This document shows positions 6,980 through 33,015 of a stretch of 64,000 nucleotides of DNA, piece after piece (position 1 is the stretch's first letter; each line of letters starts with the position of its first letter). The stretch lies in NCBI GenBank assembly GCA_036345935.2, contig JADWOT020001649.1:18001-82000 (forward strand), written 5' to 3'. A program made the position numbers and the translations under genes. Below the pieces are notes generated by a model. It made no database searches, was not told where the DNA came from, and saw nothing but the letters and a program-made list of their open reading frames with translations. This stretch comes from Taenia hydatigena. Lineage: Eukaryota; Platyhelminthes; Cestoda; Cyclophyllidea; Taeniidae.

Positions 6980-7029
6980 CCTGTGTATTCGGAACTGAAA
7001 GGCCCTAACACAATAAATGCAACAATATT

Positions 7030-8613: not shown

Positions 8614-9616
8614 CGTGAGTGATGCTGTAGGCTTGTTAACGCTGTAGATTCGGAGCCAGCGCAGCTAACACAAACTCCATCTCAGCGATTGACATTTATA
8701 AAGTACGAACGCATCAGCATTAACGTAACCTCATCGATTTTGCTTCCATCCACTTCCCCCTAAATGGCCTTCTTGTGTGGTCACTGCAAAATGTGTTGAA
8801 CAGTGGCATACTTCCTCGCTGTGGAGTGCACCGTCTTTCTGTGGCAAAAAATAATAAACTTTTGCATGGTTGAGTGCGTATGGGACATGCATTCACTGGG
8901 ATGAATTTGTGCTCCGTCACTTGTACGCTGCTAGCCTCGATACCAATTGCTGCACCGAATTGCATACAACTCGTATTTTCATGTTAAATGCAGATTTCAT
9001 GCTATGTTTACACGTGCGTGCAAGCACCACTTTTGACTTTTCCTAACTTCCCTTGTTCCTTCGAGGCAGACAAAATTCATTAGGATCTGATGTTAACAGC
9101 TGGGTAGCATCGCATTCAGTCTACTCCATCCCAACGACAATATCCACCGTGGACTGTGGAAATTTCTCTGTGTCCTGTGTTAGACAACAATGATCGACTA
9201 AATTGTCAGGGATTATTCAAAAGCGATGCCCTCAAAATGAGTAAGCGAAGACTTTACGCACTTCTGTGACCCTTACGAGTACTTTTACATGCATGTGCTG
9301 CGCTGTCCAATTTATTCAGTGAAGTGACATTTGAGATTTTCCCACTGAATCGCCTCAGGCACAGTTCCAACGCCACGGTGAAATTAAGGTTCTCGTTGTT
9401 AGTTCGATCATTGTGGAAGAAAGACTCTTGATTTACCTCCACGTTCCTTGCAAGTAACATGCACTTTAAGATGCTTTTGTGTTGCCCTATTGCAAAAATT
9501 CGCATTCGGACCTTTCATAAATTAGTTCAACTCAATCTACCGACGTGAATTAAGCGGCCAGCAGCTGATATGTTGCAACCAACAGTAGTTATTATATGAA
9601 TGCGTTTTTTTAATTT

Positions 9617-10039
9617 TCAGCTAAAAGCAGAAGAACGTGTTTGACTTCCTCTCTTGCGATTCCTCCCGTGTCATTTGCAATAATCCGCACAGTTGAAAGC
9701 AACAAAGCACATCTGACGTTCTATGAGCATTTGCTCACCAATACGTCCCCAGAAAATATCAACTTTCGTGTGGTTCCCGAGCCACGTATAAGAAAGGTAA
9801 AGTTTTTCTCAGTTCGTTCTACTCTGCTGCCCTTCCAATTGGATCTACACTCTTCTATGCCTCCTTCTCTGCCACATTCTCTCACTGCTAGGCATCCGGA
9901 ACAATACATTTCTGAGCAAGTCTCACAGTGCTTCGCAAAATATATGCGATTTGGTAACGTCAATCCTGACACTGCCGCATCTGTTGTGACTGCTTTTGTT
10001 AATGACAATTGCAACCGGCTACCTCGCTGGATGAGATGA
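9617..10039 (+). CDS. Exon-like frame of an unidentified gene, left arm
   Basis: A TTTTTTTAATTTTCAG acceptor lies just before an open frame with residues SLAIPPVSFAIIRTVES, then NINFRVVPEPRIRK, followed by GTAAAG at about 9797. A second acceptor (CTCACTGCTAG) precedes a segment ending FVNDNCNRLPRWMR and TGA at 10037-10039. Read either through (132 codons from 9641) or spliced, both parts look protein-like. The mirror copy is at 31842-32240 (-) with one replacement (QCFAKY versus QRFAKY, base 9929). I do not recognise the family. Upstream coding sequence was not identified. Confidence 0.4.
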   Translation, partial: SAKSRRTCLTSSLAIPPVSFAIIRTVESNKAHLTFYEHLLTNTSPENINFRVVPEPRIRKVKFFSVRSTLLPFQLDLHSSMPPSLPHSLTARHPEQYISEQVSQCFAKYMRFGNVNPDTAASVVTAFVNDNCNRLPRWMR

Positions 10040-12287
10040 AGACGTACGAATAGGTCATTTTACACGCACCAGCACAGCACAGGTGAGTGTGAGTATCTCA
10101 TCTCCTACAGTGCGATTCTGAAAAATGTGTTTACTTACCCCCTGCATAAAAACCCGTATGTCCTCAAAGACTTGTACAAATATAGGCTCAACTTCCCGCA
10201 TCACTTTTGCCTTCTGCGCTCCACTTGCTACCTGACGAGCAGATGAAGCTGGTTAGACTAGTGCGATAAACGGTCACTACTTAACCCGTCTTCCCTGGTT
10301 CCTTCAAAAATGCAAATCTACCAGCATCGGAGCAGTCCGTTTCGCAGCACTTATGGTGATTGTAAGGCAATGTACCAACCAGAGTACCAAGACTTATTTT
10401 GACATTTTTTTCAGTCAGTCCCATCAAGGACTTGAATCTTTAGTTTGTCCGTTAAATTTTACAGAAACTGCAACTTTCTGCAACGCTGACCAACTTCTTG
10501 TTGCCACAACGACTACAGCTGCCATTGCGGTGTTTCCAATCGTGTGATATGCTACTCCCAGCCTGCCATCTCACCATAAGAAAATGCAAATAGGGTCGTA
10601 TTACAGCAAATCCAAGTGTATTAATATCTTTGACTGAAAGTATTTGAGTAGTAGATTTCAGCAATTTTCTCATCCTCACGAACCAGAACTCTGTCTAGTC
10701 ACACCCTCCATAGGCATTGTGAACCGCTCTCTTGTTTCCATTTCCACAGTCTCTCCTTTGAGTTATTCCACTTAGAATTTCAAGAATAATCCAGCCTCAT
10801 GTTAACTTATTGGCGGCTTTCAAAGACTGACCAGAGGGAAGTTTGACCGCGACCACCTTATCAGGCGATTACAAACGAATCTCTTTGCTTAAAGCCATTG
10901 CACTACTAAGATTTTGCTACATCGATCTGGGTTAGTACACATAAGGATGTCAGAAGTAAAAAGCTCGGCGTCGCTAACAGACTCCACCACGTTTATCTGG
11001 TTCACATAGAATTTATGCTATGTCTGAATATATGTGCATAATCCACCCCTTCAATCTCTCTCACCCTTCTCATTCGAACCGACCAAACTTTGGTAGATTC
11101 CAATTCACTGACACCTCCTTACGATTGCGGCTGGAGAACGTGGTGAGCAGAAGCAATGCAAAACACGTGAGCAGCTCTTCATTTTCTCCATTCACTTCAA
11201 TTTTTGTAACCTACCTTGCTTTGAGATAGATTATGCAGAACTAGAATTCGAAATAATGTAAAATTTGTTTTGCTTGGGCTCCGTTTGGTGTAAGTCTTCA
11301 ACCTTGATACGGTATGCTTGAACTGTACTGTCTACAACTCGAAATTCCATGTAACTATAAGAGCTATGCAGCGTTTGCACACATGTGTTAATTTTGACCA
11401 TTTCTGTGGTCTTCACTCTCACTTGTTCTAAAGCGGAACAAACTCACTTTGATCTGGTTGTAAGAACAGCAGAAGACATCTCTGTTGCCACCATGGTGGC
11501 CACATTTACCTAGGTCTCCCAAAACACATCCGCCTCGTTTACGGCCACCACACACGAGTGTCCCAGCCAAAAGAAGATGTTAGACAAAGCTGACCAACCG
11601 AATTTTAAAAATTGGCAGAAGAATGAGTTAAGCATTATTTAAAGTAACGTAACCTCTTCCAGTATCAAAGATGATGAAAATCGGCAGCGGGCTCAAAACT
11701 GCCAGTGTACTTAGGTGACACAGAATTCCACGCAAGCAGGATGGTGAGATGTACCGTTGTCGGTGGATGGCAGCTGTCAATTTCCTGTTACACAATGACA
11801 TAAACCAATGAAATTGTTTGACACGATGAGGGACAGGAGGTCGGTTGAGATAAGAACTTCAACAAACAATCAGTTTTCCTTTCAAGGAAGGAAAGCGATT
11901 TCCTTAGCTGAATAGACCAAAACGTTGGTGCACCACCTATTAAATTTTAGCCAAAGATTATTGAGAAGATTGCTTACTCTTTCTTTTGTTATCACAGAGA
12001 AGCGGGTCGTTTGCATGTTTGCCACACTTCCGACATCACCACATGGTTCGCTCCCTCTCCACGTCATCAGAAATTGTGAAAAAAATAATCCTGTTTCAAA
12101 TTCTCACCATGGTCATTCGTCTCATCATTAGCAGTCTTGTCCTCGACTCTGCTAGCAGCAGGTAGCCTTCGCCAACAGCGAATTGTCAAGTATGCGGAGC
12201 GGAAAGTGTTGGTCACATCGCATAACAAATATATCGCCAGGGGATTCCAAGGTAACGGATACGACAAAGCGCAAAGTCACTTGCAAC

Positions 12288-12509
12288 TTATTTTCCAATG
12301 TTAACATTACCAAGCGTAGTGCTTGAAAGGACAATTTTTGTTAAGTTTAATGCCTTGAGCCTAGCGGTGTGGACAACATCTCGTATATCCAAAGTGAATG
12401 CAAAATTCGACTCTACCTTACACATGTACTGACCATAAAGTCCAACTTTCAAACAATGCTTTAATTCGTCAATGGATTCGTCTTTTAAATCAAGGAATTC
12501 GTTTTCCAC
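12288..12509 (-). CDS. Exon-like frame, left-arm copy (acidic N-terminal part)
   Basis: Mirror of 29372-29593 on the right arm. The minus-strand frame begins VENEFLDLKDESIDELK directly after a CTTTTTAG acceptor and stops at TAA. See the right-arm copy for the description. Confidence 0.35.
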   Translation of the reverse strand: MENEFLDLKDESIDELKHCLKVGLYGQYMCKVESNFAFTLDIRDVVHTARLKALNLTKIVLSSTTLGNVNIGK

Positions 12510-12984
12510 CTAAAAAGCATTGTTTTTTAATTTTTGGAAACTTTGTGTATTTGCTTTGGAATAAGAGTGTGGATGGTTAGGACGCCGAATTAAGCTACGT
12601 GTCCCCTTATCCATCTGCTTTTATCACCAAAACTTCAGGGCGATTATTGTGTCCAGAGGTCTCCTTGACAATGGTGATGGCCTCCTGTGAGATTAACAGA
12701 CACTATCCCATCACAAACAGTTATTTAAAAGCAACTTTCTGCCAAATTTTCGCCATCATCACGACTAACACCTTTTTTAAATCTGTGTCAATTTCCTTGT
12801 CAACATGGTTCGATGCTAAAGGGAAAGACGAGAGGTCAATTCCAACATTGTCCTTAACCTCGGAAGAATTTGGTCGCTAATCGTGGGCTATAATGTCGGT
12901 ACAAGCCAGGCGCAGAGGAAGCATGATGCTGGCGGTCCAGAGAGGCAAGATTTATCCTTCGTTTTTAAAATAAACAAGGCGTTC

Positions 12985-13215
12985 TCAGAGATTGAATTTT
13001 TGCCTTTGATCATCTACTGAATTGGTTTCTAAGCACAAATTTTTGGTGTTCCAGCATTCAATCTGCTGCCGGTGCTGTCTTGTGTTATTGAGGCTCTCAT
13101 CCCTTTCTTCATTTTCAGCAATAACACCAAGAAGGGCCGCTTTGGCAGCCAATATACTCTGCACAATTTGGTCACCATTCTCTTTATCTGGGTTAGAGAA
13201 GAGGACATTTTGCAT
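12985..13215 (-). CDS. Coiled-coil-like exon, left-arm copy
   Basis: Mirror of 28666-28896. The frame contains DKENGDQIVQSILAAKAAL and ENEERDESLNNTRQHRQQ and ends QKFNL-stop. The high content of Glu, Asn, Gln and Arg with spaced aliphatics suggests a helical or coiled-coil segment. The product is not identified. Confidence 0.35.
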   Translation of the reverse strand: MQNVLFSNPDKENGDQIVQSILAAKAALLGVIAENEERDESLNNTRQHRQQIECWNTKNLCLETNSVDDQRQKFNL

Positions 13216-16200
13216 TGTGCATCATTTTTAGGACGTTTTAACCAATATTCTACAAAATTCCTTTAGCAGCAATCGGGTTACTTATCCAGCAGTGAAGGTG
13301 GTTCTTCAGAGTACATGTTGTCAGTCAGTAGGTGGAAGGTGAGGATTCTGAGTTCAGTGGAAGTTCAAAGTTCAAAGCAACTTAGCCCTGCAGGAGTGAA
13401 CATTGGACACCTCTTTGTCATTCGATCAATTTTTGCCGTCGTTAGAGTGCACACTCCTACTTCACCTTACCAAAATGATGGTTGAGGTGTGTGGTCCCAG
13501 CGACTGATTGATCCTCTTCACCACAAAGGAGGCAAAGTACTAGAATAGTTGATTGATCGTCTCGCTGCTAAGTCATTTTGAATCGCTCTATGCTGAAATA
13601 GGAACGCAGTTCCAATTCACTGCTAGAATGCATGGACTCGGTTTCATTTCCACGGCTTTCGCTGTGAGCTAATATTGTCACCACCAAACAAGTTTTCAGG
13701 GTGCATTCTTGGTGGTTAGGGCTGGCTGTCGCGTTGTTTTCTTGAAATCCTTTTCAAAATTAACCACAGAGCAGAACATGCTGTTGTGAATAAGCTACTT
13801 ACAAAGATTCTTTGGATAAACACGAACCCGCAAATTGGGAAGGCAGTTAATGGACCTCGCATTAATGTGGCATCAAAGCAACAGCAACAACAGTCATAAT
13901 GTGTGCCAGCAATGGGATCTTGCCACACATGCCCATATGGCACCTCAGGTGATGATACCGGTTTGCTACTAATTGGATTTTATTAGTTTCACTCTGAATG
14001 CTTTATGAAATAGGACGATTTGTAATCCTGGTGTATGGTAGCTTTACCGCCCTATTTATAGTTTGATGAAATTTTTCAGTGACCCATAGTGGCTTTGCAC
14101 CACAAACATTACGGAATAACTGATTGAACATTTTGTCTAAACAAGTCAAAAGGTCATGAGCAGGAGGCAATGTCAGATCCCCTCAAAAAGTTCGTAAGTA
14201 TGTGAATGATAATGGCTAGAAGGTGGAGTTTGAATTCCAGACTTACCGGCTTTGTACGCAGGAAATCATTTACGATAAATGTTAGTTGTGAGGAGTGCAG
14301 CAACACCCCATAGCGAAGTTAACGTCGTCATCTAGAGCATCCCAGGTCGCACTTCATCAGAGTAAGGTAACTGCATCTCCTTGCCATTTCCTCCCCTACA
14401 TTACACCTTCTTTCTTAGCCAGTTGTGGATGGGATGCAAATGCGTTGTGCGACGTTAAAATCGACCGCAGAGTAAGAGATTGGAACAGCCCTGCTTCTCC
14501 AACGCCTAAACATGGTTGCCTGATGGCATTGAAGAAAGGCTAATGTTTGCAATTCGAACATACAAAACCTGTCAAGTGTTGGTGGAAACCACACCTTCAA
14601 AATTCCACCAAAACTCTTGAGAAGTCACGTGCTTTGAAGCGAACCGGCACCGTTTTTTTAGGTTATGCCAACTTTAGGCAAAATATTGTAATCCCAAGCA
14701 TGCATTCATTTAGATATCCTCACTTGTTTTACTTTAGGAGGTGTGAATAGGAAAGTGCAAAGCCGAACTTCACTGAGCTTAAGCTATCACACTCATTTTG
14801 AAGACTTAAGCGTGATTGACTCATTAGGTAACATTCGGGATTCTGTCGGCGCACGCTACTACCGAAGTCAAGAGGGTCGAGCTGGCGCGTAGCTGTGACT
14901 TGTACACACAGTTCTTAGAAGGCGGGACATCGAAAACCACTCCTAATACTTCATTCAACTTTAATGATGCGAGTTAACATGCAATGCCAGTTTGGAATCG
15001 AAACTAATAGTTATCAAGGTATTTTGCAAGCGAATCCTTATAGTTTTCGTGACATTGCGTGAGTAGCTAAGCGATAGCAGAATAAACTGAGTCTGTTTGT
15101 CCATCTTTGTCCAAAAGTAAACATTAATTTCGGGCGACAGCAAAAACCATGGAGACATCAGCAAAAGATCATGTAGGAGCCATGAAAGGCATTTCATACA
15201 CGATCAGCATCGGCTGTGCATTCGCAAAGCATGAGATCTTTACCGACTCAAAACTACCTGTTAATTCTTTTTGCATCCACCTTACAACTCACCCTTACTG
15301 TCGCTGTGTTGATCGGCAAGGCGGTGCCGAGGCTAAAGACAGATCGTTCCGATGTACCAAGGCTTTGCAAAGTCGAAGCAGTAGCCGCGAATAAGGATGA
15401 GAACAAAGCGCCTAAAAAAGTAGTGGAGGCGAGGCTGTTTTCATGACAAATAGGTTGCGTCCCCTTCCAGCAATTTATAAATTTGTCCACTGCCATAACA
15501 CTAGAAAAACCTAATGTTCCTCATGTCTTAAGATCACTCGTTTTCGCCATTGACCACTCGCCTCTGCTTAATGCCATGGCACTACATTCTATAAAATGAT
15601 TGAACTGGTCTGCATTACCCCATCTCTATGCAATGCTATAAAGTTAAGTATCACAATGCTGCGTCGCGAACAACATTATAGTGATTAAGTTCACAAGACC
15701 AGAAGTTAGCATTTTGCTGCTATGGTAAGCCGAAGAGAGGATTATATCAAGTGCATTTCTTCCTAAGAATTCTCTCTAATAGAGCTGGTTCAGAAATTCC
15801 TCATAGCATAACCAAGCAACTGCAGGGACAGCACAATACCGAATCGTGCAATCAAATAGAAATTCCTTCAGTGCGTGATTAACACGGAATAAGAGCGAGG
15901 AGGAAGAAGTAAGGTAGGGAAGGTGGAGGCAGCCACAAACACATACTGGGTCAAAATATATGGCCCATCCAGCACTATTCATTCAAAGCATAAAACGTAA
16001 AAGGAAATCGCTGTCTTGACGAATCAATCGGTGAAACCTGTCACAAAGTGAACACCTACATTAGTCCTCCAAAGAGTTCTGCACCTTAGAATAACGACCG
16101 CAAACAGTCGAAATCATCATCAACCGCGGGAGCAGCAGCAGAAGTTTGCAAAAACGAGTATCCGGTTTGTGTCACTTCTCTTAAAGTCTGCATTTCCTTA

Positions 16201-16949
16201 GTCTTCTTTTATGAATTCCATTCTCTTAGCCACTTATTTTTTTCCCTTTCCACGCTGTAGCAGCCATTCCACGGTACTGTCTCCCATAGTTGTAATGCGA
16301 CGAAATTAATCGCCATCCCGTCATTCTACCTCTGCCATCTCTAAAACAAAGATAAATTAGGCTTGTGAATCCCAGTGCTACATTTACGCGCAGTTAAAGC
16401 ACGCAATTAAATATAAGTTAGCGCAGATGTACCGCTTGTGCATTGCAGCCAACCTCTTGATTTCTTCAAGATCACCCAATGTCCTTCGGCGCGCGTCACG
16501 CCTGCATTCGTTCAATCATTCGCTCACACAACTCGTGCTAAACGTAACAAACACTTTGCCGAGCTTTTGCAATGCAATTCCTTAACAGCGAATAGAGACG
16601 GTGGTGCATTCGGATGATAAAACGGAATTATTTCCTATTCACAAAATCGACGTCTTCTAAAAACAAAGCAAGCTTATTGATCAACGAGTTTATGTGAGGT
16701 GACTAAGATGGAATTTATGCTCTGAGTTCTGGGCAAAGAATGGAAAAGGCTTCAAGGTAAATTGGCTGGTTCTAGTATGGGTAAATAGGGCGACTTTTAT
16801 AAGTATGTAAAAGCTTGAGTGTGACATTCATGAAAGTCAAAGTTCTTTCATCAAGTCAATTCCCTTCATATTTTACTTAGTCTAACAGCTAGATGGGGGC
16901 AAGCGAATCATTTTGGGAACAGATAGGAGCAAGACCAAAAAAATAAGGC

Positions 16950-17350
16950 TTGCTGCATCACAGCACTGTGCAAAGTCATCCAATCGTACCATCTCACTTT
17001 AATTCCTGCGGCTTTATTCACTCTACCTCCTCCTTATTCATTCCTTTGTCTCTTTCAGCTGAGTAATCATGCTACTCCGCTCCCACCAAAGAAATGCATT
17101 CATCGTCACCGCCTATCCATTGGGTTTAGCGGCTGATTTCTCAATTTTACAGTGTCACTTCGCCTTAAATGTCGACAAGTCGAAGAATAGCGCATAATCT
17201 CCACACATTGTCCGTTTCCAAACCTTTTTTTCTCATCGTTGAGCCTTCCCACTTTTACACTTACTACTTTTTACGTCTCTTTCTCTATCTCAATCATCCC
17301 TTTGTCTCTTTTAGCTGAGCATTAATGTAACTTTGCCCCTATAGAAGAAA
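16950..17350 (+). repeat. Internal duplicated block inside the arm
   Basis: Two direct units offset by roughly 255 bp share CCTTTGTCTCTTTCAGCTGAG (17043) and CCTTTGTCTCTTTTAGCTGAG (17299). A related block lies in reverse orientation at about 19060-19140 and another at about 56590-56740. The mirror in the right arm is about 24530-24932. This is an old interspersed repeat carried along with the palindrome, with no coding evidence. Confidence 0.55.
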
Positions 17351-18399
17351 CGAATGGATCACTACTGCAAATTGCAATGTAAGATAACAATTTCCGCAAG
17401 AAAAGTATCAGGGATAGGCATCAAAGCAGTTGTGAACTTCAGCGGTAATACACCGATTTCTGAATAAATTTTTTGCCCTGCACCACGCATTCTGTGCCAC
17501 GCTTGCTTTTATTGTCTTCTGGTTGGTGCGATGTCACACGATGCTGGTGAGTAGGTCAACACACCAAAATGACAGAAGAGTCGAAGGCGGAAGTTTGTGC
17601 AACGATTATGGTCAAATTTGGGAATTGAATTGTAGTGTTCAGGGTGTAAGTAATTTGAAGCAGTGAATGCTGGTGTTTCGAGCCACCAATATTTGGGAGC
17701 ATGGGAATGCATGCTGGAGTTAGCAGACCTCATCATATTCGGTAGATCAGAGGTATTTCAGGGCTGGCACGCAAAACGGCATGCTGGGAGATCAACAGTG
17801 TCTGCTTGACTTGGATGTAGACCTTCTCATTGACAAGGTAACTTAAGCGGTCTGCGTATCGTTCCCATTTCAATATCGTTAGTTAACTCGAAGTGGCGAA
17901 GTGGATGATTGGAATGCGCCGTAGCTCTTTGGTTGGTACTTCCACAATAGTTGAAGAGTGAGTCCGCCATCTCGTTTGCCGCCTATTGCTTGCAGTGCAT
18001 CGATTTGATTGACGGACAACGTTGTTCCGCACCCTCACAGCCAGCAGGAAATAATGGCGACACAAGGGACATCTGCTTTTCACTAGTGTGAGGGCCTATG
18101 CCAGTTTTATAAGTCGCGTCATCTTCACACCAAAAAAGGGGAAAATAGAAACCAAGAATTAACAATAATCCAGGTTGAGCTATGCTAAAAGGGGAGCTGG
18201 TTTTAGCAAAGCGTGAGTGAGACAAACCAAGTCCAGTCCGTACTGGCCTGACTTAGGCGATCGTCTTTTCATCATTGTACCATGTCATAATTTGGAGTAA
18301 GAGTAGTATAGATAGGAAATAGAATTACAAATATGGCACTAAGAGTCGATGTGATTGGAGGAGGAGGAAGGGTAGTGACTGATAATTGATCCAAACGAA

Positions 18400-20046
18400 A
18401 ATAAACGAAGGCAAGGAAATAGATGCAGAGTGTGCGCACCCCCTTTTGTCTTTGGTCTAATGTGGTGGGCATACACGGTGGGACATAACGCAAGGCGCAG
18501 TGCGCGAGAGCATATTGCAGCGTAGTAGGAGACACAGGAGCCACTCAGCAAAGGTGTGTTAGAGTAGGGCATGAGAAAGGAGGCGTTGACAAGAGAGCTC
18601 CTTTCTACCCATTTTGAATCCGTCATCAGGCCTTCTTCTTAAGTGTGTGACTCGCTACTTAATGCCTACGTAAAAGAAAGATGCTGACGTAAAAGGCGTG
18701 TCTGAGGATGTGGCATGCACGATAGATGAGATAGCTCTGTTTACTCCTATCTTTCCTATTTAATCCACACCTGTCATTACCTGGCATAGGCAGTGGGGCA
18801 TGCATAGTGAGCTAGTTATAATTACCGTAATAGACCTTCAGATACGGATGTTTGAGACATGAATAGTTTATATGGCACAGTAAATGTAGTGTAGAGTAAA
18901 AATCTATTGAGGGGTCGATAATTTGGTCCTAGAGACTGCTCTTGAGAAAACAAAGGTGCGTGTTATAAGCCCATCCCTGATTTGATGTCAAAACGAATTG
19001 GTAACCCTACACTACTATTGGCAATCGTGCTTATAGCTAGACTCCAATAGGTGCAAAGTTACGTAAACAATTAGCTGGAGGAGACAAGGATTGGAAATGG
19101 ACGCAGTAGGATGACTTGACAGTGCTGTGGTGCATCGTGCCCTAGTACTTTTCGTTTTACATCCATTCCTAAACTGGTCTAGTTGTCTATTCAGCCGAAA
19201 AGGTGGCTAGGCAAAGTTTAATTTATTTGCCCTTATGAAGCAAATTTAGGTGTTTTAGATCAGAGCATTCGTAGCACCTAGGGACAATCGTGTCCCACGC
19301 GATTTGTATTAAGGAGCATATTATATAATGCTGTTAAAGCACGCACAAATTAAAAAAGAAAAAGGAAAGGATAATCAGAGAGAGGAGGGAAATCAGCCTC
19401 CGTTTCCTCGTTATCTATCTGCTTTTATTTCCGAGATAAAGAGGGTTGCAGTAGAGGAAAGGATGGAAAGATCATAAGTGAAAGGAAAAATAAAGCAGAA
19501 AGGAAATGCTGGTGAACGGCAGAATGGTGGGAATGCCGCTGTAAATCATGATAAATAATGAGGGACTATACAACGCGGAGAAGAGCATGTTAAATGGCAT
19601 GCTTTGTGATTGACTTCTTTGAATCTGACGCGTGTGATCGGCTAAAGGCACATGTCTCGTGGTGTCTCTCGGTGCCATCTGACGTACGCTTTTGATAGCA
19701 TAGCTTGTGCGTGGTTTTGTTGGGGCAGACATTACTTGCCTTAATGCCTCATAACTTGGTCGAACTTGGTGCAGTGTAGGGCATGCAAAGGAGGCGGAGG
19801 AGATGAAGAAGAGCCACCGATGCTAATGCGCTCCAAATTAAATGCGCTGCCAATTCTAGACTGCTTGTCCTCGAAGTTTTGCACTTGGTGTTGCCTTTTG
19901 CGACTGAAGCTCTTCTGGTGATTAAAACAGTTTAATCAACACGAGGTATGATTGAGTAACGAAAGTGGCCAATCGCTTATAAAGATTGCGATAAAGCTAG
20001 CGATGATGAATTTCGAGCCAATTGTCATCTTGCACCAGGATCAACA
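18400..20046 (+). repeat. Inner-arm block with diverged relative at 55988-57660
   Basis: The inner part of the arm aligns in order with 56.0-57.66 kb. Anchors are GAGAAAGGAGGCG near 18573/56265, GATAGATGAGA near 18720/56431, TGCAAAGGAGG near 19785/57430, GCGCTGCC near 19838/57490 and TTGTCATCTTGCACCAGGA at the end, matched by TTGTTGTCTTGCACCAGGG near 57630. The homology runs right up to the inner palindrome boundary. The mirror copy occupies 21836-23480. Confidence 0.65.
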
Positions 20047-20336
20047 CACTAAGCAGTCGCATCTTAAGTCCTGTTGATTCTCAAGTAATTAAAAGGTCAG
20101 TACTGAGTTAGGGAACGTCTCAGTGCACGACTCGCATCCAAGAGATCATGTGTGCTAAGAGGGCATAAACCAGCCAAAACGAAACCCGAAACCACTGTAC
20201 TTATGGCCGTACATATTGGATTAAGGTCATAAAGGCCAACTTCTGCACAATCGATGGTGAGACAAGTTACTTGCAGTAGGAAAGCTCTCGATGATAATAG
20301 AACGTTTCTTTCCAACTTAATTATCACCGGGTCTAG

Positions 20337-20356
20337 CGGTACGGTACGGTACGGTT
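20337..20356. repeat. (CGGTA)3 plus CGGTT pentamer run
   Basis: There are three exact CGGTA units and one CGGTT in the spacer, about 270 bp upstream of the promoter of the Trp-rich gene. Confidence 0.9.
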
Positions 20357-20594
20357 CGATACTGGCCTGTGCTTTATGACCTCTACATTGGCAAGTCCAT
20401 CACCATTCATAGAACATTGCCAAATTTCTATGTTGAGAAGTCACATGCAACTCACAGTCTAGACGACACCTGAAATATCAGCTGAGAGCGTTGGCATCAC
20501 GAGAGCATCGATGGCGATCGGCAAGCACGAGTGTAGAGCTTTAAGTACAGTGAGCACGAGGGTAACACGAGATAATTAGGGACAAGGCGACTGG

Positions 20595-20629: not shown

Positions 20630-20653
20630 ATCAAGGAAAGCAGAGACAGAGAA

Positions 20654-20863: not shown

Positions 20864-21321
20864 GCATCAACCACCACCGAGGTTGTGCCTACACCGATAC
20901 TTGTGAAGACGCCTCCACGTGCCATGGAGGTGAAGGAGCTAGTCAGCGGTGTACATGCCCTCCTCTACTTCTCCCTTGTTTTGAGCGCACAACTACCGCT
21001 ATTATTTCTGTATATCGCTTGCGACTTCCTAATTATTGATTAGACATCATTGCTTCAACTTACACCGAACTTTCCTTTGGCATTTTCTAGTTGGGTATGC
21101 AAGATGAATTAGCGAATAGAAGTTCTGCTATTGTTTTCTCCTAGAGGCCTTATTGCATGGTCGGATAAAAATGCTGCCACATTCATTATTTCCTTTATTT
21201 TTCCTTGACTTGCATAAGTACAGCCCTTGATTTCTGCCACTTCTAATGTTGGATGAAATGATTGGAGAGTGAAAATGCTATGCCTTTATCCTAGAGTAGA
21301 TTTGGGGTATGGTTATGGTTG

Positions 21322-21327
21322 AATAAA
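21322..21327 (+). terminator. Candidate poly(A) signal
   Basis: This AATAAA is the first clear + strand poly(A) hexamer I found after the Trp-rich frame. It would imply a 3' untranslated region of roughly 480 nt, long for such a small gene. The link is tentative. Confidence 0.3.
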
Positions 21328-24300
21328 AATGCATTCTTGCATCGACAACCATGTGACTTTTAAATGAAGCGATGGCACACACTCCTTGAAAGTGCAACAA
21401 AGGTATTTCAAATCAAGCAAAGTTGAATTTGATGCAGGAGTTAATGTGGTATCATTTTCAGTGGATAATTCTGAGCTTCTACTTTCGCACTTCATTTTGT
21501 TGATGGTTTGCTTTAGTTCCATGTTTCGGCCCATAGTGATCCAACATGTGAACATCGTGCGATATTTGAAAGTGCAGTACAGCTGGCTATGTGATTTTCC
21601 ATTTCCATCAAATTTTAGCGACAAGGAGTTGGCTTCTGTCTGTTGGACAGTGACCTGCTGAAGGGACTAATGAATGCTTGTCATCACAATTTCGACAGCA
21701 ATATTGCTTTCACTGTGTATTTATTGGAGCATTCGCCTGTCGGTTTTAAGTGAGACTTAACCATACTGTATATTAAAATAGTCAATTTCATGTAAACCAC
21801 TGCCTTACTATGCGGTGCATTATAATTGCCTTCATTGTTGATCCTGGTGCAAGATGACAATTGGCTCGAAATTCATCATCGCTAGCTTTATCGCAATCTT
21901 TATAAGCGATTGGCCACTTTCGTTACTCAATCATACCTCGTGTTGATTAAACTGTTTTAATCACCAGAAGAGCTTCAGTCGCAAAAGGCAACACCAAGTG
22001 CAAAACTTCGAGGACAAGCAGTCTAGAATTGGCAGCGCATTTAATTTGGAGCGCATTAGCATCGGTGGCTCTTCTTCATCTCCTCCGCCTCCTTTGCATG
22101 CCCTACACTGCACCAAGTTCGACCAAGTTATGAGGCATTAAGGCAAGTAATGTCTGCCCCAACAAAACCACGCACAAGCTATGCTATCAAAAGCGTACGT
22201 CAGATGGCACCGAGAGACACCACGAGACATGTGCCTTTAGCCGATCACACGCGTCAGATTCAAAGAAGTCAATCACAAAGCATGCCATTTAACATGCTCT
22301 TCTCCGCGTTGTATAGTCCCTCATTATTTATCATGATTTACAGCGGCATTCCCACCATTCTGCCGTTCACCAGCATTTCCTTTCTGCTTTATTTTTCCTT
22401 TCACTTATGATCTTTCCATCCTTTCCTCTACTGCAACCCTCTTTATCTCGGAAATAAAAGCAGATAGATAACGAGGAAACGGAGGCTGATTTCCCTCCTC
22501 TCTCTGATTATCCTTTCCTTTTTCTTTTTTAATTTGTGCGTGCTTTAACAGCATTATATAATATGCTCCTTAATACAAATCGCGTGGGACACGATTGTCC
22601 CTAGGTGCTACGAATGCTCTGATCTAAAACACCTAAATTTGCTTCATAAGGGCAAATAAATTAAACTTTGCCTAGCCACCTTTTCGGCTGAATAGACAAC
22701 TAGACCAGTTTAGGAATGGATGTAAAACGAAAAGTACTAGGGCACGATGCACCACAGCACTGTCAAGTCATCCTACTGCGTCCATTTCCAATCCTTGTCT
22801 CCTCCAGCTAATTGTTTACGTAACTTTGCACCTATTGGAGTCTAGCTATAAGCACGATTGCCAATAGTAGTGTAGGGTTACCAATTCGTTTTGACATCAA
22901 ATCAGGGATGGGCTTATAACACGCACCTTTGTTTTCTCAAGAGCAGTCTCTAGGACCAAATTATCGACCCCTCAATAGATTTTTACTCTACACTACATTT
23001 ACTGTGCCATATAAACTATTCATGTCTCAAACATCCGTATCTGAAGGTCTATTACGGTAATTATAACTAGCTCACTATGCATGCCCCACTGCCTATGCCA
23101 GGTAATGACAGGTGTGGATTAAATAGGAAAGATAGGAGTAAACAGAGCTATCTCATCTATCGTGCATGCCACATCCTCAGACACGCCTTTTACGTCAGCA
23201 TCTTTCTTTTACGTAGGCATTAAGTAGCGAGTCACACACTTAAGAAGAAGGCCTGATGACGGATTCAAAATGGGTAGAAAGGAGCTCTCTTGTCAACGCC
23301 TCCTTTCTCATGCCCTACTCTAACACACCTTTGCTGAGTGGCTCCTGTGTCTCCTACTACGCTGCAATATGCTCTCGCGCACTGCGCCTTGCGTTATGTC
23401 CCACCGTGTATGCCCACCACATTAGACCAAAGACAAAAGGGGGTGCGCACACTCTGCATCTATTTCCTTGCCTTCGTTTATTTTCGTTTGGATCAATTAT
23501 CAGTCACTACCCTTCCTCCTCCTCCAATCACATCGACTCTTAGTGCCATATTTGTAATTCTATTTCCTATCTATACTACTCTTACTCCAAATTATGACAT
23601 GGTACAATGATGAAAAGACGATCGCCTAAGTCAGGCCAGTACGGACTGGACTTGGTTTGTCTCACTCACGCTTTGCTAAAACCAGCTCCCCTTTTAGCAT
23701 AGCTCAACCTGGATTATTGTTAATTCTTGGTTTCTATTTTCCCCTTTTTTGGTGTGAAGATGACGCGACTTATAAAACTGGCATAGGCCCTCACACTAGT
23801 GAAAAGCAGATGTCCCTTGTGTCGCCATTATTTCCTGCTGGCTGTGAGGGTGCGGAACAACGTTGTCCGTCAATCAAATCGATGCACTGCAAGCAATAGG
23901 CGGCAAACGAGATGGCGGACTCACTCTTCAACTATTGTGGAAGTACCAACCAAAGAGCTACGGCGCATTCCAATCATCCACTTCGCCACTTCGAGTTAAC
24001 TAACGATATTGAAATAGGAACGATACGCAGACCGCTTAAGTTACCTTGTCAATGAGAAGGTCTACATCCAAGTCAAGCAGACACTGTTGATCTCCCAGCA
24101 TGCCGTTTTGCGTGCCAGCCCTGAAATACCTCTGATCTACCGAATATGATGAGGTCTGCTAACTCCAGCATGCATTCCCATGCTCCCAAATATTGGTGGC
24201 TCGAAACACCAGCATTCACTGCTTCAAATTACTTACACCCTGAACACTACAATTCAATTCCCAAATTTGACCATAATCGTTGCACAAACTTCCGCCTTCG

Positions 24301-27300
24301 ACTCTTCTGTCATTTTGGTGTGTTGACCTACTCACCAGCATCGTGTGACATCGCACCAACCAGAAGACAATAAAAGCAAGCGTGGCACAGAATGCGTGGT
24401 GCAGGGCAAAAAATTTATTTAGAAATCGGTGTATTACCGCTGAAGTTCACAACTGCTTTGATGCCTATCCCTGATACTTTTCTTGCGGAAATTGTTATCT
24501 TACATTGCAATTTGCAGTAGTGATCCATTCGTTTCTTCTATAGGGGCAAAGTTACATTAATGTTCAGCTAAAAGAGACAAAGGGATGATTGAGATAGAGA
24601 AAGAGACGTAAAAAGTAGTAAGTGTAAAAGTGGGAAGGCTCAACGATGAGAAAAAAAGGTTTGGAAACGGACAATGTGTGGAGATTATGCGCTATTCTTC
24701 GACTTGTCGACATTTAAGGCGAAGTGACACTGTAAAATTGAGAAATCAGCCGCTAAACCCAATGGATAGGCGGTGACGATGAATGCATTTCTTTGGTGGG
24801 AGCGGAGTAGCATGATTACTCAGCTGAAAGAGACAAAGGAATGAATAAGGAGGAGGTAGAGTGAATAAAGCCGCAGGAATTAAAGTGAGATGGTACGATT
24901 GGATGACTTTGCACAGTGCTGTGATGCAGCAAGCCTTATTTTTTTGGTCTTGCTCCTATCTGTTCCCAAAATGATTCGCTTGCCCCCATCTAGCTGTTAG
25001 ACTAAGTAAAATATGAAGGGAATTGACTTGATGAAAGAACTTTGACTTTCATGAATGTCACACTCAAGCTTTTACATACTTATAAAAGTCGCCCTATTTA
25101 CCCATACTAGAACCAGCCAATTTACCTTGAAGCCTTTTCCATTCTTTGCCCAGAACTCAGAGCATAAATTCCATCTTAGTCACCTCACATAAACTCGTTG
25201 ATCAATAAGCTTGCTTTGTTTTTAGAAGACGTCGATTTTGTGAATAGGAAATAATTCCGTTTTATCAGCCGAATGCACCACCGTCTCTATTCGCTGTTAA
25301 GGAATTGCATTGCAAAAGCTCGGCAAAGTGTTTGTTACGTTTAGCACGAGTTGTGTGAGCGAATGATTGAACGAATGCAGGCGTGACGCGCGCCGAAGGA
25401 CATTGGGTGATCTTGAAGAAATCAAGAGGTTGGCTGCAATGCACAAGCGGTACATCTGCGCTAACTTATATTTAATTGCGTGCTTTAACTGCGCGTAAAT
25501 GTAGCACTGGGATTCACAAGCCTAATTTATCTTTGTTTTAGAGATGGCAGAGGTAGAATGACGGGATGGCGATTAATTTCGTCGCATTACAACTATGGGA
25601 GACAGTACCGTGGAATGGCTGCTACAGCGTGGAAAGGGAAAAAAATAAGTGGCTAAGAGAATGGAATTCATAAAAGAAGACTAAGGAAATGCAGACTTTA
25701 AGAGAAGTGACACAAACCGGATACTCGTTTTTGCAAACTTCTGCTGCTGCTCCCGCGGTTGATGATGATTTCGACTGTTTGCGGTCGTTATTCTAAGGTG
25801 CAGAACTCTTTGGAGGACTAATGTAGGTGTTCACTTTGTGACAGGTTTCACCGATTGATTCGTCAAGACAGCGATTTCCTTTTACGTTTTATGCTTTGAA
25901 TGAATAGTGCTGGATGGGCCATATATTTTGACCCAGTATGTGTTTGTGGCTGCCTCCACCTTCCCTACCTTACTTCTTCCTCCTCGCTCTTATTCCGTGT
26001 TAATCACGCACTGAAGGAATTTCTATTTGATTGCACGATTCGGTATTGTGCTGTCCCTGCAGTTGCTTGGTTATGCTATGAGGAATTTCTGAACCAGCTC
26101 TATTAGAGAGAATTCTTAGGAAGAAATGCACTTGATATAATCCTCTCTTCGGCTTACCATAGCAGCAAAATGCTAACTTCTGGTCTTGTGAACTTAATCA
26201 CTATAATGTTGTTCGCGACGCAGCATTGTGATACTTAACTTTATAGCATTGCATAGAGATGGGGTAATGCAGACCAGTTCAATCATTTTATAGAATGTAG
26301 TGCCATGGCATTAAGCAGAGGCGAGTGGTCAATGGCGAAAACGAGTGATCTTAAGACATGAGGAACATTAGGTTTTTCTAGTGTTATGGCAGTGGACAAA
26401 TTTATAAATTGCTGGAAGGGGACGCAACCTATTTGTCATGAAAACAGCCTCGCCTCCACTACTTTTTTAGGCGCTTTGTTCTCATCCTTATTCGCGGCTA
26501 CTGCTTCGACTTTGCAAAGCCTTGGTACATCGGAACGATCTGTCTTTAGCCTCGGCACCGCCTTGCCGATCAACACAGCGACAGTAAGGGTGAGTTGTAA
26601 GGTGGATGCAAAAAGAATTAACAGGTAGTTTTGAGTCGGTAAAGATCTCATGCTTTGCGAATGCACAGCCGATGCTGATCGTGTATGAAATGCCTTTCAT
26701 GGCTCCTACATGATCTTTTGCTGATGTCTCCATGGTTTTTGCTGTCGCCCGAAATTAATGTTTACTTTTGGACAAAGATGGACAAACAGACTCAGTTTAT
26801 TCTGCTATCGCTTAGCTACTCACGCAATGTCACGAAAACTATAAGGATTCGCTTGCAAAATACCTTGATAACTATTAGTTTCGATTCCAAACTGGCATTG
26901 CATGTTAACTCGCATCATTAAAGTTGAATGAAGTATTAGGAGTGGTTTTCGATGTCCCGCCTTCTAAGAACTGTGTGTACAAGTCACAGCTACGCGCCAG
27001 CTCGACCCTCTTGACTTCGGTAGTAGCGTGCGCCGACAGAATCCCGAATGTTACCTAATGAGTCAATCACGCTTAAGTCTTCAAAATGAGTGTGATAGCT
27101 TAAGCTCAGTGAAGTTCGGCTTTGCACTTTCCTATTCACACCTCCTAAAGTAAAACAAGTGAGGATATCTAAATGAATGCATGCTTGGGATTACAATATT
27201 TTGCCTAAAGTTGGCATAACCTAAAAAAACGGTGCCGGTTCGCTTCAAAGCACGTGACTTCTCAAGAGTTTTGGTGGAATTTTGAAGGTGTGGTTTCCAC

Positions 27301-28665
27301 CAACACTTGACAGGTTTGTATGTTCGAATTGCAAACATTAGCCTTTCTTCAATGCCATCAGGCAACCATGTTTAGGCGTTGGAGAAGCAGGGCTGTTCCA
27401 ATCTCTTACTCTGCGGTCGATTTTAACGTCGCACAACGCATTTGCATCCCATCCACAACTGGCTAAGAAAGAAGGTGTAATGTAGGGGAGGAAATGGCAA
27501 GGAGATGCAGTTACCTTACTCTGATGAAGTGCGACCTGGGATGCTCTAGATGACGACGTTAACTTCGCTATGGGGTGTTGCTGCACTCCTCACAACTAAC
27601 ATTTATCGTAAATGATTTCCTGCGTACAAAGCCGGTAAGTCTGGAATTCAAACTCCACCTTCTAGCCATTATCATTCACATACTTACGAACTTTTTGAGG
27701 GGATCTGACATTGCCTCCTGCTCATGACCTTTTGACTTGTTTAGACAAAATGTTCAATCAGTTATTCCGTAATGTTTGTGGTGCAAAGCCACTATGGGTC
27801 ACTGAAAAATTTCATCAAACTATAAATAGGGCGGTAAAGCTACCATACACCAGGATTACAAATCGTCCTATTTCATAAAGCATTCAGAGTGAAACTAATA
27901 AAATCCAATTAGTAGCAAACCGGTATCATCACCTGAGGTGCCATATGGGCATGTGTGGCAAGATCCCATTGCTGGCACACATTATGACTGTTGTTGCTGT
28001 TGCTTTGATGCCACATTAATGCGAGGTCCATTAACTGCCTTCCCAATTTGCGGGTTCGTGTTTATCCAAAGAATCTTTGTAAGTAGCTTATTCACAACAG
28101 CATGTTCTGCTCTGTGGTTAATTTTGAAAAGGATTTCAAGAAAACAACGCGACAGCCAGCCCTAACCACCAAGAATGCACCCTGAAAACTTGTTTGGTGG
28201 TGACAATATTAGCTCACAGCGAAAGCCGTGGAAATGAAACCGAGTCCATGCATTCTAGCAGTGAATTGGAACTGCGTTCCTATTTCAGCATAGAGCGATT
28301 CAAAATGACTTAGCAGCGAGACGATCAATCAACTATTCTAGTACTTTGCCTCCTTTGTGGTGAAGAGGATAAATCAGTCGCTGGGACCACACACCTCAAC
28401 CATCATTTTGGTAAGGTGAAGTAGGAGTGTGCACTCTAACGACGGCAAAAATTGATCGAATGACAAAGAGGTGTCCAATGTTCACTCCTGCAGGGCTAAG
28501 TTGCTTTGAACTTTGAACTTCCACTGAACTCAGAATCCTCACCTTCCACCTACTGACTGACAACATGTACTCTGAAGAACCACCTTCACTGCTGGATAAG
28601 TAACCCGATTGCTGCTAAAGGAATTTTGTAGAATATTGGTTAAAACGTCCTAAAAATGATGCACA

Positions 28666-28896
28666 ATGCAAAATGTCCTCTTCTCTAACCCAGATAAAGA
28701 GAATGGTGACCAAATTGTGCAGAGTATATTGGCTGCCAAAGCGGCCCTTCTTGGTGTTATTGCTGAAAATGAAGAAAGGGATGAGAGCCTCAATAACACA
28801 AGACAGCACCGGCAGCAGATTGAATGCTGGAACACCAAAAATTTGTGCTTAGAAACCAATTCAGTAGATGATCAAAGGCAAAAATTCAATCTCTGA
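28666..28896 (+). CDS. Coiled-coil-like exon, right-arm copy
   Basis: An open + frame reads NPDKENGDQIVQSILAAKAA and then ENEERDESLNNTRQHRQQ, ending QKFNL-TGA. Composition and heptad-like spacing suggest a helical scaffold segment. Another open + stretch at about 29005-29160 (PNSSEVKDNVGIDLSSFP, then LKKVLVVMMAKIWQKVAFK-stop) lies 0.1 kb downstream, so several exons of one unidentified gene may be present. An identical copy lies on the left arm. Confidence 0.35.
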   Translation: MQNVLFSNPDKENGDQIVQSILAAKAALLGVIAENEERDESLNNTRQHRQQIECWNTKNLCLETNSVDDQRQKFNL

Positions 28897-29371
28897 GAAC
28901 GCCTTGTTTATTTTAAAAACGAAGGATAAATCTTGCCTCTCTGGACCGCCAGCATCATGCTTCCTCTGCGCCTGGCTTGTACCGACATTATAGCCCACGA
29001 TTAGCGACCAAATTCTTCCGAGGTTAAGGACAATGTTGGAATTGACCTCTCGTCTTTCCCTTTAGCATCGAACCATGTTGACAAGGAAATTGACACAGAT
29101 TTAAAAAAGGTGTTAGTCGTGATGATGGCGAAAATTTGGCAGAAAGTTGCTTTTAAATAACTGTTTGTGATGGGATAGTGTCTGTTAATCTCACAGGAGG
29201 CCATCACCATTGTCAAGGAGACCTCTGGACACAATAATCGCCCTGAAGTTTTGGTGATAAAAGCAGATGGATAAGGGGACACGTAGCTTAATTCGGCGTC
29301 CTAACCATCCACACTCTTATTCCAAAGCAAATGCACAAAGTTTCCAAAAATTAAAAAACAATGCTTTTTAG

Positions 29372-29593
29372 GTGGAAAACGAATTCCTTGATTTAAAAGA
29401 CGAATCCATTGACGAATTAAAGCATTGTTTGAAAGTTGGACTTTATGGTCAGTACATGTGTAAGGTAGAGTCGAATTTTGCATTCACTTTGGATATACGA
29501 GATGTTGTCCACACCGCTAGGCTCAAGGCATTAAACTTAACAAAAATTGTCCTTTCAAGCACTACGCTTGGTAATGTTAACATTGGAAAATAA
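29372..29593 (+). CDS. Exon-like frame after a TTTTTAG acceptor, right-arm copy
   Basis: The frame opens with GTG directly after AATGCTTTTTAG and reads VENEFLDLKDESIDELKHC, then LYGQYMCKVESNFAFTLDIR. A GTAAGGTAG donor-like site occurs inside at about 29460, so the exon may be shorter than the frame. The N-terminal part is acidic and helical. It follows the coiled-coil-like frame at 28666-28896 by 0.5 kb on the same strand. No family is recognised. Confidence 0.35.
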   Translation: MENEFLDLKDESIDELKHCLKVGLYGQYMCKVESNFAFTLDIRDVVHTARLKALNLTKIVLSSTTLGNVNIGK

Positions 29594-30310
29594 GTTGCAA
29601 GTGACTTTGCGCTTTGTCGTATCCGTTACCTTGGAATCCCCTGGCGATATATTTGTTATGCGATGTGACCAACACTTTCCGCTCCGCATACTTGACAATT
29701 CGCTGTTGGCGAAGGCTACCTGCTGCTAGCAGAGTCGAGGACAAGACTGCTAATGATGAGACGAATGACCATGGTGAGAATTTGAAACAGGATTATTTTT
29801 TTCACAATTTCTGATGACGTGGAGAGGGAGCGAACCATGTGGTGATGTCGGAAGTGTGGCAAACATGCAAACGACCCGCTTCTCTGTGATAACAAAAGAA
29901 AGAGTAAGCAATCTTCTCAATAATCTTTGGCTAAAATTTAATAGGTGGTGCACCAACGTTTTGGTCTATTCAGCTAAGGAAATCGCTTTCCTTCCTTGAA
30001 AGGAAAACTGATTGTTTGTTGAAGTTCTTATCTCAACCGACCTCCTGTCCCTCATCGTGTCAAACAATTTCATTGGTTTATGTCATTGTGTAACAGGAAA
30101 TTGACAGCTGCCATCCACCGACAACGGTACATCTCACCATCCTGCTTGCGTGGAATTCTGTGTCACCTAAGTACACTGGCAGTTTTGAGCCCGCTGCCGA
30201 TTTTCATCATCTTTGATACTGGAAGAGGTTACGTTACTTTAAATAATGCTTAACTCATTCTTCTGCCAATTTTTAAAATTCGGTTGGTCAGCTTTGTCTA
30301 ACATCTTCTT

Positions 30311-30433
30311 TTGGCTGGGACACTCGTGTGTGGTGGCCGTAAACGAGGCGGATGTGTTTTGGGAGACCTAGGTAAATGTGGCCACCATGGTGGCAACAGA
30401 GATGTCTTCTGCTGTTCTTACAACCAGATCAAA
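30311..30433 (+). CDS. Possible exon with GTGAGT donor, right arm
   Basis: A coding-like stretch ends CAGATCAAA followed by GTGAGTTTG at 30434. Two frames are open here: one is Gly/Cys-rich (VCGGRKRGGCVLGDLGKCGH). The other, from about 30266, reads SNIFFWLGHSCVVAVNEADV with one TAG, then MVATEMSSAVLTTRSK. The second looks more protein-like but is interrupted. Its mirror is at about 11448-11570 (-). Confidence 0.25.
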
Positions 30434-31841
30434 GTGAGTTTGTTCCGCTTTAGAACAAGTGAGAGTGAAGACCACAGAAATGGTCAAAATTAACACATGT
30501 GTGCAAACGCTGCATAGCTCTTATAGTTACATGGAATTTCGAGTTGTAGACAGTACAGTTCAAGCATACCGTATCAAGGTTGAAGACTTACACCAAACGG
30601 AGCCCAAGCAAAACAAATTTTACATTATTTCGAATTCTAGTTCTGCATAATCTATCTCAAAGCAAGGTAGGTTACAAAAATTGAAGTGAATGGAGAAAAT
30701 GAAGAGCTGCTCACGTGTTTTGCATTGCTTCTGCTCACCACGTTCTCCAGCCGCAATCGTAAGGAGGTGTCAGTGAATTGGAATCTACCAAAGTTTGGTC
30801 GGTTCGAATGAGAAGGGTGAGAGAGATTGAAGGGGTGGATTATGCACATATATTCAGACATAGCATAAATTCTATGTGAACCAGATAAACGTGGTGGAGT
30901 CTGTTAGCGACGCCGAGCTTTTTACTTCTGACATCCTTATGTGTACTAACCCAGATCGATGTAGCAAAATCTTAGTAGTGCAATGGCTTTAAGCAAAGAG
31001 ATTCGTTTGTAATCGCCTGATAAGGTGGTCGCGGTCAAACTTCCCTCTGGTCAGTCTTTGAAAGCCGCCAATAAGTTAACATGAGGCTGGATTATTCTTG
31101 AAATTCTAAGTGGAATAACTCAAAGGAGAGACTGTGGAAATGGAAACAAGAGAGCGGTTCACAATGCCTATGGAGGGTGTGACTAGACAGAGTTCTGGTT
31201 CGTGAGGATGAGAAAATTGCTGAAATCTACTACTCAAATACTTTCAGTCAAAGATATTAATACACTTGGATTTGCTGTAATACGACCCTATTTGCATTTT
31301 CTTATGGTGAGATGGCAGGCTGGGAGTAGCATATCACACGATTGGAAACACCGCAATGGCAGCTGTAGTCGTTGTGGCAACAAGAAGTTGGTCAGCGTTG
31401 CAGAAAGTTGCAGTTTCTGTAAAATTTAACGGACAAACTAAAGATTCAAGTCCTTGATGGGACTGACTGAAAAAAATGTCAAAATAAGTCTTGGTACTCT
31501 GGTTGGTACATTGCCTTACAATCACCATAAGTGCTGCGAAACGGACTGCTCCGATGCTGGTAGATTTGCATTTTTGAAGGAACCAGGGAAGACGAGTTAA
31601 GTAGTGACCGTTTATCGCACTAGTCTAACCAGCTTCATCTGCTCGTCAGGTAGCAAGTGGAGCGCAGAAGGCAAAAGTGATGCGGGAAGTTGAGCCTATA
31701 TTTGTACAAGTCTTTGAGGACATACGGGTTTTTATGCAGGGGGTAAGTAAACACATTTTTCAGAATCGCACTGTAGGAGATGAGATACTCACACTCACCT
31801 GTGCTGTGCTGGTGCGTGTAAAATGACCTATTCGTACGTCT

Positions 31842-32240
31842 TCATCTCATCCAGCGAGGTAGCCGGTTGCAATTGTCATTAACAAAAGCAGTCACAACAG
31901 ATGCGGCAGTGTCAGGATTGACGTTACCAAATCGCATATATTTTGCGAAGCGCTGTGAGACTTGCTCAGAAATGTATTGTTCCGGATGCCTAGCAGTGAG
32001 AGAATGTGGCAGAGAAGGAGGCATAGAAGAGTGTAGATCCAATTGGAAGGGCAGCAGAGTAGAACGAACTGAGAAAAACTTTACCTTTCTTATACGTGGC
32101 TCGGGAACCACACGAAAGTTGATATTTTCTGGGGACGTATTGGTGAGCAAATGCTCATAGAACGTCAGATGTGCTTTGTTGCTTTCAACTGTGCGGATTA
32201 TTGCAAATGACACGGGAGGAATCGCAAGAGAGGAAGTCAA
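31842..32240 (-). CDS. Exon-like frame of an unidentified gene, right-arm copy
   Basis: Mirror of the left-arm frame at 9641-10039, differing by one replacement. The palindrome therefore encodes this candidate exon twice, on opposite strands and pointing toward each other across the spacer. Confidence 0.4.
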   Translation of the reverse strand: MTSSLAIPPVSFAIIRTVESNKAHLTFYEHLLTNTSPENINFRVVPEPRIRKVKFFSVRSTLLPFQLDLHSSMPPSLPHSLTARHPEQYISEQVSQRFAKYMRFGNVNPDTAASVVTAFVNDNCNRLPRWMR

Positions 32241-33015
32241 ACACGTTCTTCTGCTTTTAGCTGAAAATTAAAAAAACGCATTCATATAATAACTACTGTT
32301 GGTTGCAACATATCAGCTGCTGGCCGCTTAATTCACGTCGGTAGATTGAGTTGAACTAATTTATGAAAGGTCCGAATGCGAATTTTTGCAATAGGGCAAC
32401 ACAAAAGCATCTTAAAGTGCATGTTACTTGCAAGGAACGTGGAGGTAAATCAAGAGTCTTTCTTCCACAATGATCGAACTAACAACGAGAACCTTAATTT
32501 CACCGTGGCGTTGGAACTGTGCCTGAGGCGATTCAGTGGGAAAATCTCAAATGTCACTTCACTGAATAAATTGGACAGCGCAGCACATGCATGTAAAAGT
32601 ACTCGTAAGGGTCACAGAAGTGCGTAAAGTCTTCGCTTACTCATTTTGAGGGCATCGCTTTTGAATAATCCCTGACAATTTAGTCGATCATTGTTGTCTA
32701 ACACAGGACACAGAGAAATTTCCACAGTCCACGGTGGATATTGTCGTTGGGATGGAGTAGACTGGATGCGATGCTACCCAGCTGTTAACATCAGATCCTA
32801 ATGAATTTTGTCTGCCTCGAAGGAGCAAGGGAGGTTAGGAAAAGTCAAAAGTGGTGCTTGCACGCACGTGTAAACATAGCATGAAATCTGCATTTAACAT
32901 GAAAATACGAGTTGTATGCAATTCGGTGCAGCAATTGGTATCGAGGCTAGCAGCGTACAAGTGACGGAGCACAAATTCATCCCAGTGAATGCATGTCCCA
33001 TACGCACTCAACCAT

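Follow-up and report, generated by a model that had tools for sequence, protein, structure and literature searches.

A near-perfect palindrome in the tapeworm Taenia hydatigena belongs to a dispersed family with divergent copies of a small tryptophan-rich gene

A 64,000-nucleotide stretch of the genome of the tapeworm Taenia hydatigena (positions 18,001 to 82,000 of contig C114, in an assembly of 306.03 Mb and 1,354 contigs; hereafter the window) contains a palindrome whose two 11-kb arms are almost identical. This palindrome is one member of a dispersed, amplified palindrome family. We consider it likely that it represents a locus of a taeniid family in which divergent pairs of a 69-codon gene stand round an asymmetric centre, and in which conversion within the locus homogenises the copies at most loci.

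Comparison of the window with itself by BLASTN gives a left arm of 11,181 bp (8866..20046, forward strand) and a right arm of 11,180 bp (21836..33015, reverse strand), matching over 11,181 columns with 99.893% identity (8866-20046 against 33015-21836; E = 0). Between them lies a unique spacer of 1,789 bp (20047..21835), made up of a remnant of a palindrome centre and one gene, and homologous to the gene-bearing inner parts of the loci on C255, C968 and C218. The coordinates and the sizes of arms and spacer reproduce those of a preliminary description of this DNA, which had counted eight substitutions and one indel between the arms so far; the single indel (a 1-nt A) holds, and the full list contains 11 substitutions, nine of them transitions and two transversions, or about 5 substitutions per 10,000 sites for each arm. 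The strongly diverged paralogues placed beside the arms by the same description are also real, as an outer inverted repeat, in register and 82-85% identical, joins 7009..8852 (forward strand) to 34782..36597 (reverse strand). Chance is excluded as the source of the inverted homology of arms and flanks. Comparison with 2 to 17 other copies indicates that nine of the 11 arm substitutions arose on a single arm, six on the right one and three on the left, and the derived state at site 9116 is also present in a distant copy on C8. At sites 9048 and 9056, which are 8 bp apart, the right arm has a state that C255 alone shares out of 17 other copies, the kind of trace expected of a short conversion tract. 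The base composition of the window is 43% G+C.

Searching the assembly with the first 3 kb of the arm gives at least 47 matches (40 of 153 candidates scored), and arm DNA lies in inverted pairs on five further contigs, where the two arms of a locus, over 2.8-8.5 kb of extracted sequence, are identical at 98.3% (C1134), 99.88% (C796), 96.8% (C1158), 99.92% (C240) and 97.3% (C1157). Inverted arms more than 99% identical round a unique spacer are found in the window and also in C240 and C796. The C240 arm extends to 12.8 kb with 98.1% identity overall, and identity drops outward in steps: each 500 bp has 42-61 mismatches in the outermost 2 kb, 9-15 in the next stretch inward and 0-6 beyond that. 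For the inner arm together with the spacer there are at least 137 matches (40 of 1,558 candidates scored), and a module of the inner arm (18790..20046, forward strand) is common to many loci, with matches on many contigs that are mostly 90-93% identical. Copies of the family lie on the large contigs C5, C7, C8 and C10 (11.6-20.9 Mb) and on C3 (at least 9.8 Mb). Palindromes of what we call the B type have a 2.7-kb centre without the tryptophan-rich gene, full in C240, C796 and C1158, and partial in C1157 (about 1.9 kb kept) and C1134 (about 0.3 kb); the centres and inner arms of C240, C796 and C1158 are 95.6-99.1% identical between loci. Two contigs that end or start inside the arm, C427 and C121, share an identical stretch of 2,622 bp in opposite orientation, and are perhaps the two arms of one palindrome that the assembly left unresolved, or alleles.

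The gene in the spacer (20654..20863, forward strand) has 69 codons, including 16 for tryptophan, nine for proline and five for cysteine. A TATA box (TATATAA; 20595..20601, forward strand) lies 59 bp before its start codon, with the initiator-like AGTCAGTATCAA downstream. When 27 copies are compared, the window's included, TATATAA is present in all 27, the initiator-like motif in 21, and the frame is open in 26. The ratio of nonsynonymous to synonymous polymorphism (pN/pS) is 0.28 in the gene frame and exceeds 1 in four of the other five frames; 28 of the 57 variable sites fall at third positions (binomial p = 0.01), and diversity per 30-bp bin is 0.01-0.09 inside the frame against 0.06-0.15 outside it. 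As judged from these patterns of variation among copies, the gene is shown to be under purifying selection. No relative of it was found among 5.8 billion proteins (possibly with few tapeworm proteins included), in Pfam or in the PDB; the composition of the predicted protein, rich in tryptophan, proline and cysteine, lets us guess at a structural role.

A genome search with the gene yields at least 150 matches on 75 contigs (150 of 540 candidates scored; all gene counts given here refer to these best 150), of which C10 carries 33, C7 seven, C5 four and C8 two. The 33 copies on C10, a contig of 11.84 Mb, span 0.59-7.08 Mb. More than half of the matches, 82 of 150, form 41 divergent pairs lying within 3 kb, with a median spacing of 2,233 bp from start to start; there are no convergent and no tandem pairs. 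The other 68, including the gene in the window, stand outside any listed pair. The centres between paired genes on C255, C968 and C218, asymmetric and roughly 1.4 kb long, align collinearly with one another at 77-94% identity, and that of a pair on C10, in opposite orientation on its contig, is 74-80% identical to the other three. Four loci have this centre in common, and since their centres are collinear and homologous, the paired unit is older than the split of these loci. One pair on C8 (5633997-5634690) has its genes only 487 bp apart and encodes proteins 99-100% identical to that of the window, with outer-arm sequence nearby at about 82%.

At most loci tested, copies within the locus are more alike than copies from different loci. 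We compared the members of 14 pairs (11 chosen for the test, together with those of C968, C255 and C218) over 327 bp: nine pairs are identical, and in 12 each member has the other as its nearest neighbour among all copies read, the next nearest copy being 3.4-7.3% away. Centres differ by 6-26% between loci. When all 41 pairs are considered, 30 have members with equal bit scores, whereas 10,000 shuffles gave 2.0 such pairs on average and never more than 9; equality of score is, however, an indirect measure of equality of sequence. A similar picture emerges for the B-type palindromes, whose inner arms diverge within the locus by 0.19% (C240), 0.27% (C796), 0.35% (C1134, over a shorter stretch) and 2.76% (C1158), compared with 1.1-5.8% between loci, so that by distance the arms are closest within the locus in all four. 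A tree of the inner arms has a supported within-locus fork for three of the four, and C240 shares a fork lacking resolution with C1157 (one C1157 arm was included); in a tree of the outer 2.6 kb of the arm C240, C796 and C114 group by locus. Arms closest to each other within the locus, in palindromes that predate the loci, are therefore a property of the family, if not of every locus. The family undergoes concerted evolution, for which arm-to-arm gene conversion would be the simplest explanation.

Several observations weigh against this reading. The C218 pair is not homogenised, differing by 2.00% within the locus and by 1.22% from C968, and the C968 pair is a tie, with 1.22% both within and to the nearest other locus. 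The 11 chosen pairs are a non-random sample, 10 of them having equal search scores, and 11 of all 41 pairs have unequal scores, that on C94 by 13.8 bits. The outer-arm tree does not sort C1158, C1134 and C1157 by locus, and the arms of C796, C1134 and C1158 are without clear outward steps like those of C240. Regarding the gene, 24 of the 150 matches carry stops, and an antisense frame rich in histidine and cysteine also has a low pN/pS, 0.34, which follows from its third positions falling on those of the sense frame. Lastly, among the matches listed, the middle of the arm is single on nearly all other contigs.

Two of these subjects deserve a closer description. The antisense frame (20500-20964) was considered as a gene and rejected, since despite its pN/pS it contains stops in 12 of the 27 copies; among the best 150 matches for each frame, 44 carry stops in the antisense frame. 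C218 and C968 are closely related loci, and that their gene copies are more alike between the loci than within C218 hints at exchange, or a recent duplication, between them.

The flanks of the window palindrome differ from each other in type. On the left (301..8865, forward strand) the sequence is of B type, with pieces 88-97% identical to the palindrome flanks of C240, C796 and C1157, among which the similarity extends to position 301 in C240 only. On the right (33016..36764, reverse strand) the flank is of A type and about 96-98% identical to C427, C121 and C1258; its first part, 33016-34781, is present on the right side only, with no left counterpart. The left arm consists of A-type sequence, and the junction with the B-type flank (8864..8867), read by eye against C796, C240 and C1157, places the change at 8866, where the B-type sequence stops and the A-type arm begins, with about 1 bp of microhomology and roughly 1.75 kb lost in register. 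At the centre, the elements of C255 follow one another as arm, gene (reversed), centre, gene, arm. The window lacks the left gene and the greater part of the centre, and its arm position 20046 abuts centre position 20047. What remains here of the ancestral asymmetric centre, which stood between divergent genes, is 20047..20341 (forward strand), matching the end part of the C255 centre at 81%, pieces from C968 and C218 at 78-88% and pieces from C10 at 81-82%. The window copy would thus be a derived locus and, if C255 represents the older state, we infer that both losses came from a deletion of about 2.5 kb.

Searching with the middle of the arm (13300-16300; 40 of 240 candidates scored) lists 38 contigs, among which only C114 has two near-identical inverted copies; some of the 38 end near this point, so a second arm could have been cut off there, and on C224 two diverged pieces lie 47 kb from each other in opposite orientation. 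As the mid-arm is single on nearly all the others, the 11-kb arms of the window need not be old, and as such they appear to be recent. They are compatible with conversion, with break-induced copying and with one inverted duplication.

The last of these is the strongest competitor to conversion for the window itself: a single recent inverted duplication, in which the broken end of a B-type flank was fused to A-type arm sequence copied by fold-back, would make continuing conversion unnecessary here. It accords with the microhomology of about 1 bp at the 8866 junction, with the mid-arm being single on nearly all other contigs listed, and with the nine substitutions that resemble new mutations on one arm. 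Yet the flanks past the junction are in-register inverted homologues (82-85%), which would seldom be expected from a random join, two linked sites are shared with C255, and homogenisation is seen at other loci, so that we regard a single duplication as quite possible while leaning somewhat against it. The preliminary description had offered recent duplication or active arm-to-arm conversion; for the family, homogenisation of the arms is borne out (12 of 14 pairs and all four B-type palindromes), and for the window's own arms either alternative may hold.

Two inverted or repeated similarities elsewhere on the contig are worth recording. Outside the palindrome, 56048-56517 and 62747-63216 form an inverted repeat of 470 bp with 96.8% identity. 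The sequence preceding the window (C114:8001-18000) has patchy direct similarity of 72-79% to 41757-52547, with one piece inverted, and this probably reflects an older duplication of the surrounding sequence.

We also considered whether the palindrome might be an assembly artefact, a fold-back or a chimera joining two haplotypes. C114 is short, at exactly 82,000 bp, and is probably debris of Hi-C scaffolding, the A-type contigs C427, C121 and C1258 stop within the arm, and a difference of 0.1% between arms could be heterozygosity. This origin is nonetheless unlikely given the unique spacer of 1.8 kb, the different flanks, and arms that differ by substitutions rather than indels; moreover, the pattern recurs at other loci, each with its own divergence, including some on the large contigs C10 and C7. 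Regarding contig sizes in general, those of C114, C427, C255, C1258, C121, C240 and C1157 are exact multiples of 1,000 bp, as might result from a scaffolder cutting on a grid, and other contigs have sizes ending in 204, 404 or 596.

A very large fold-back or terminal-inverted-repeat transposon would equally be dispersed, inverted and present in many copies, but we find this very unlikely: at other loci homology passes the arms into both flanks for kilobases, no common outer ends were seen, and fixed outer ends with unrelated flanks were absent from the loci read. There was also no Pfam match above the cut-off in ten open reading frames of the window (three matches fell below it), and none in two read-through frames at 34-49 kb. 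Rfam and tRNA scans of the window gave no match.

The DNA comes from a taeniid: the Taeniidae antigen family PF05596 has seven matches in the assembly, six of them above the cut-off, and is silent in 14 control genomes (the controls for this search being negative only). A sponge origin had been considered at first and was set aside. Three exon matches were found for SRCR, COX1 was not found in the assembly, and Chitin_bind_4 had no match there, with its controls silent too. Hermaphroditism is reported for nearly all flatworms other than schistosomes, and in hermaphroditic cestodes sequencing coverage is even or unimodal, without a sex-chromosome signal (PMC9187692); there is consequently no known sex chromosome on which to place the palindrome. 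The proposal of the preliminary description, that such a palindrome marks a sex or germline-limited chromosome, could appeal to the high arm identity, the spacer, the amplified gene and the concentration of 33 of the best 150 gene matches on C10, but in a hermaphrodite with taeniid antigen genes and copies of the family on five multi-megabase contigs (C3, C5, C7, C8 and C10) the sex-chromosome reading fails, and we think the proposal as a whole highly improbable.

Returning to conversion within dispersed loci, the core unit would be an asymmetric centre of about 1.4 kb between two divergently transcribed copies of the tryptophan-rich gene. Conversion between the inverted arms during repair would keep the copies of most loci nearly identical while the loci drift apart, and the outcome would be that intact gene copies are kept and the small protein is supplied at a high dose. 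In the window, a deletion of about 2.5 kb relative to C255 would have taken away the left gene together with the greater part of the centre. The left arm there would be A-type sequence set against a B-type flank, a state reached either by copying from the right arm, through conversion or a break-induced process, or by a single recent inverted duplication. Both conversion as the molecular process and its part in keeping the gene copies intact and abundant are what we infer from the comparison of loci. A broader idea, that the dozens of dispersed palindromes of this hermaphrodite amount to a genome-wide system for keeping copies of twin orphan genes through arm-to-arm conversion, we put forward tentatively, as one that may well prove wrong.

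Most discussion of large converting palindromes treats them as a response to the lack of crossing-over on sex chromosomes, and an example with many loci in a hermaphrodite offers a natural test of that idea. If the broader idea is true, what favours palindrome conversion would be the dosage of amplified genes or the repair of copies in itself, and not the absence of crossing-over on a sex chromosome. The family also exposes an amplified, selected gene without a relative in the collections searched. Among the best matches in the open-licence literature we found no description of palindromes in tapeworms, of which the print record may hold some, and none of the combination of a hermaphrodite, many dispersed loci and twin genes.

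Comparison with known systems places the family between several of them. Like the ta-TRIM elements of taeniids, it is an amplified, lineage-specific taeniid repeat, but ta-TRIM elements are small long-terminal-repeat elements, unlike the palindromes; the two were set against each other by description only, and a few cases of gene conversion are reported in T. solium (PMC4558846). The chorion genes HcA and HcB of the silkmoth likewise form many head-to-head divergent pairs with TATA boxes that are similar between copies (PMC4639761), and head-to-head pairs with TATA promoters are what we find here, with 41 divergent pairs and TATATAA in 27 of 27 copies. Chorion genes encode eggshell proteins. 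Each of their pairs, however, combines two different types of gene at a distance of 330 nt, and the pairs form one cluster (PMC4639761), whereas the tapeworm pairs hold the same gene twice, about 2.2 kb from start to start, at dispersed loci. Outside mammals, palindromes with evidence of conversion are described for the W chromosome of willow, where two lie in one sex-determining region with conserved stretches of 20 kb (PMC7023750); the tapeworm family is by contrast dispersed and without a sex chromosome. The family also resembles the ampliconic palindromes of the human and ape Y and X chromosomes, which have arms of about 99.9% identity, a unique spacer and protein genes inside (PMC3403216, PMC3723533, PMC8981503). 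There too the divergence between arms lies far below that between orthologous arms, the figures for human Y palindromes being 0.02-0.03% between arms and 1.44% between the orthologous arms of different species (PMC3403216). What sets the tapeworm apart is a hermaphroditic host, arms of about 2-13 kb instead of tens to hundreds of kilobases, and dozens of small loci on several large contigs with a single 69-codon orphan gene.

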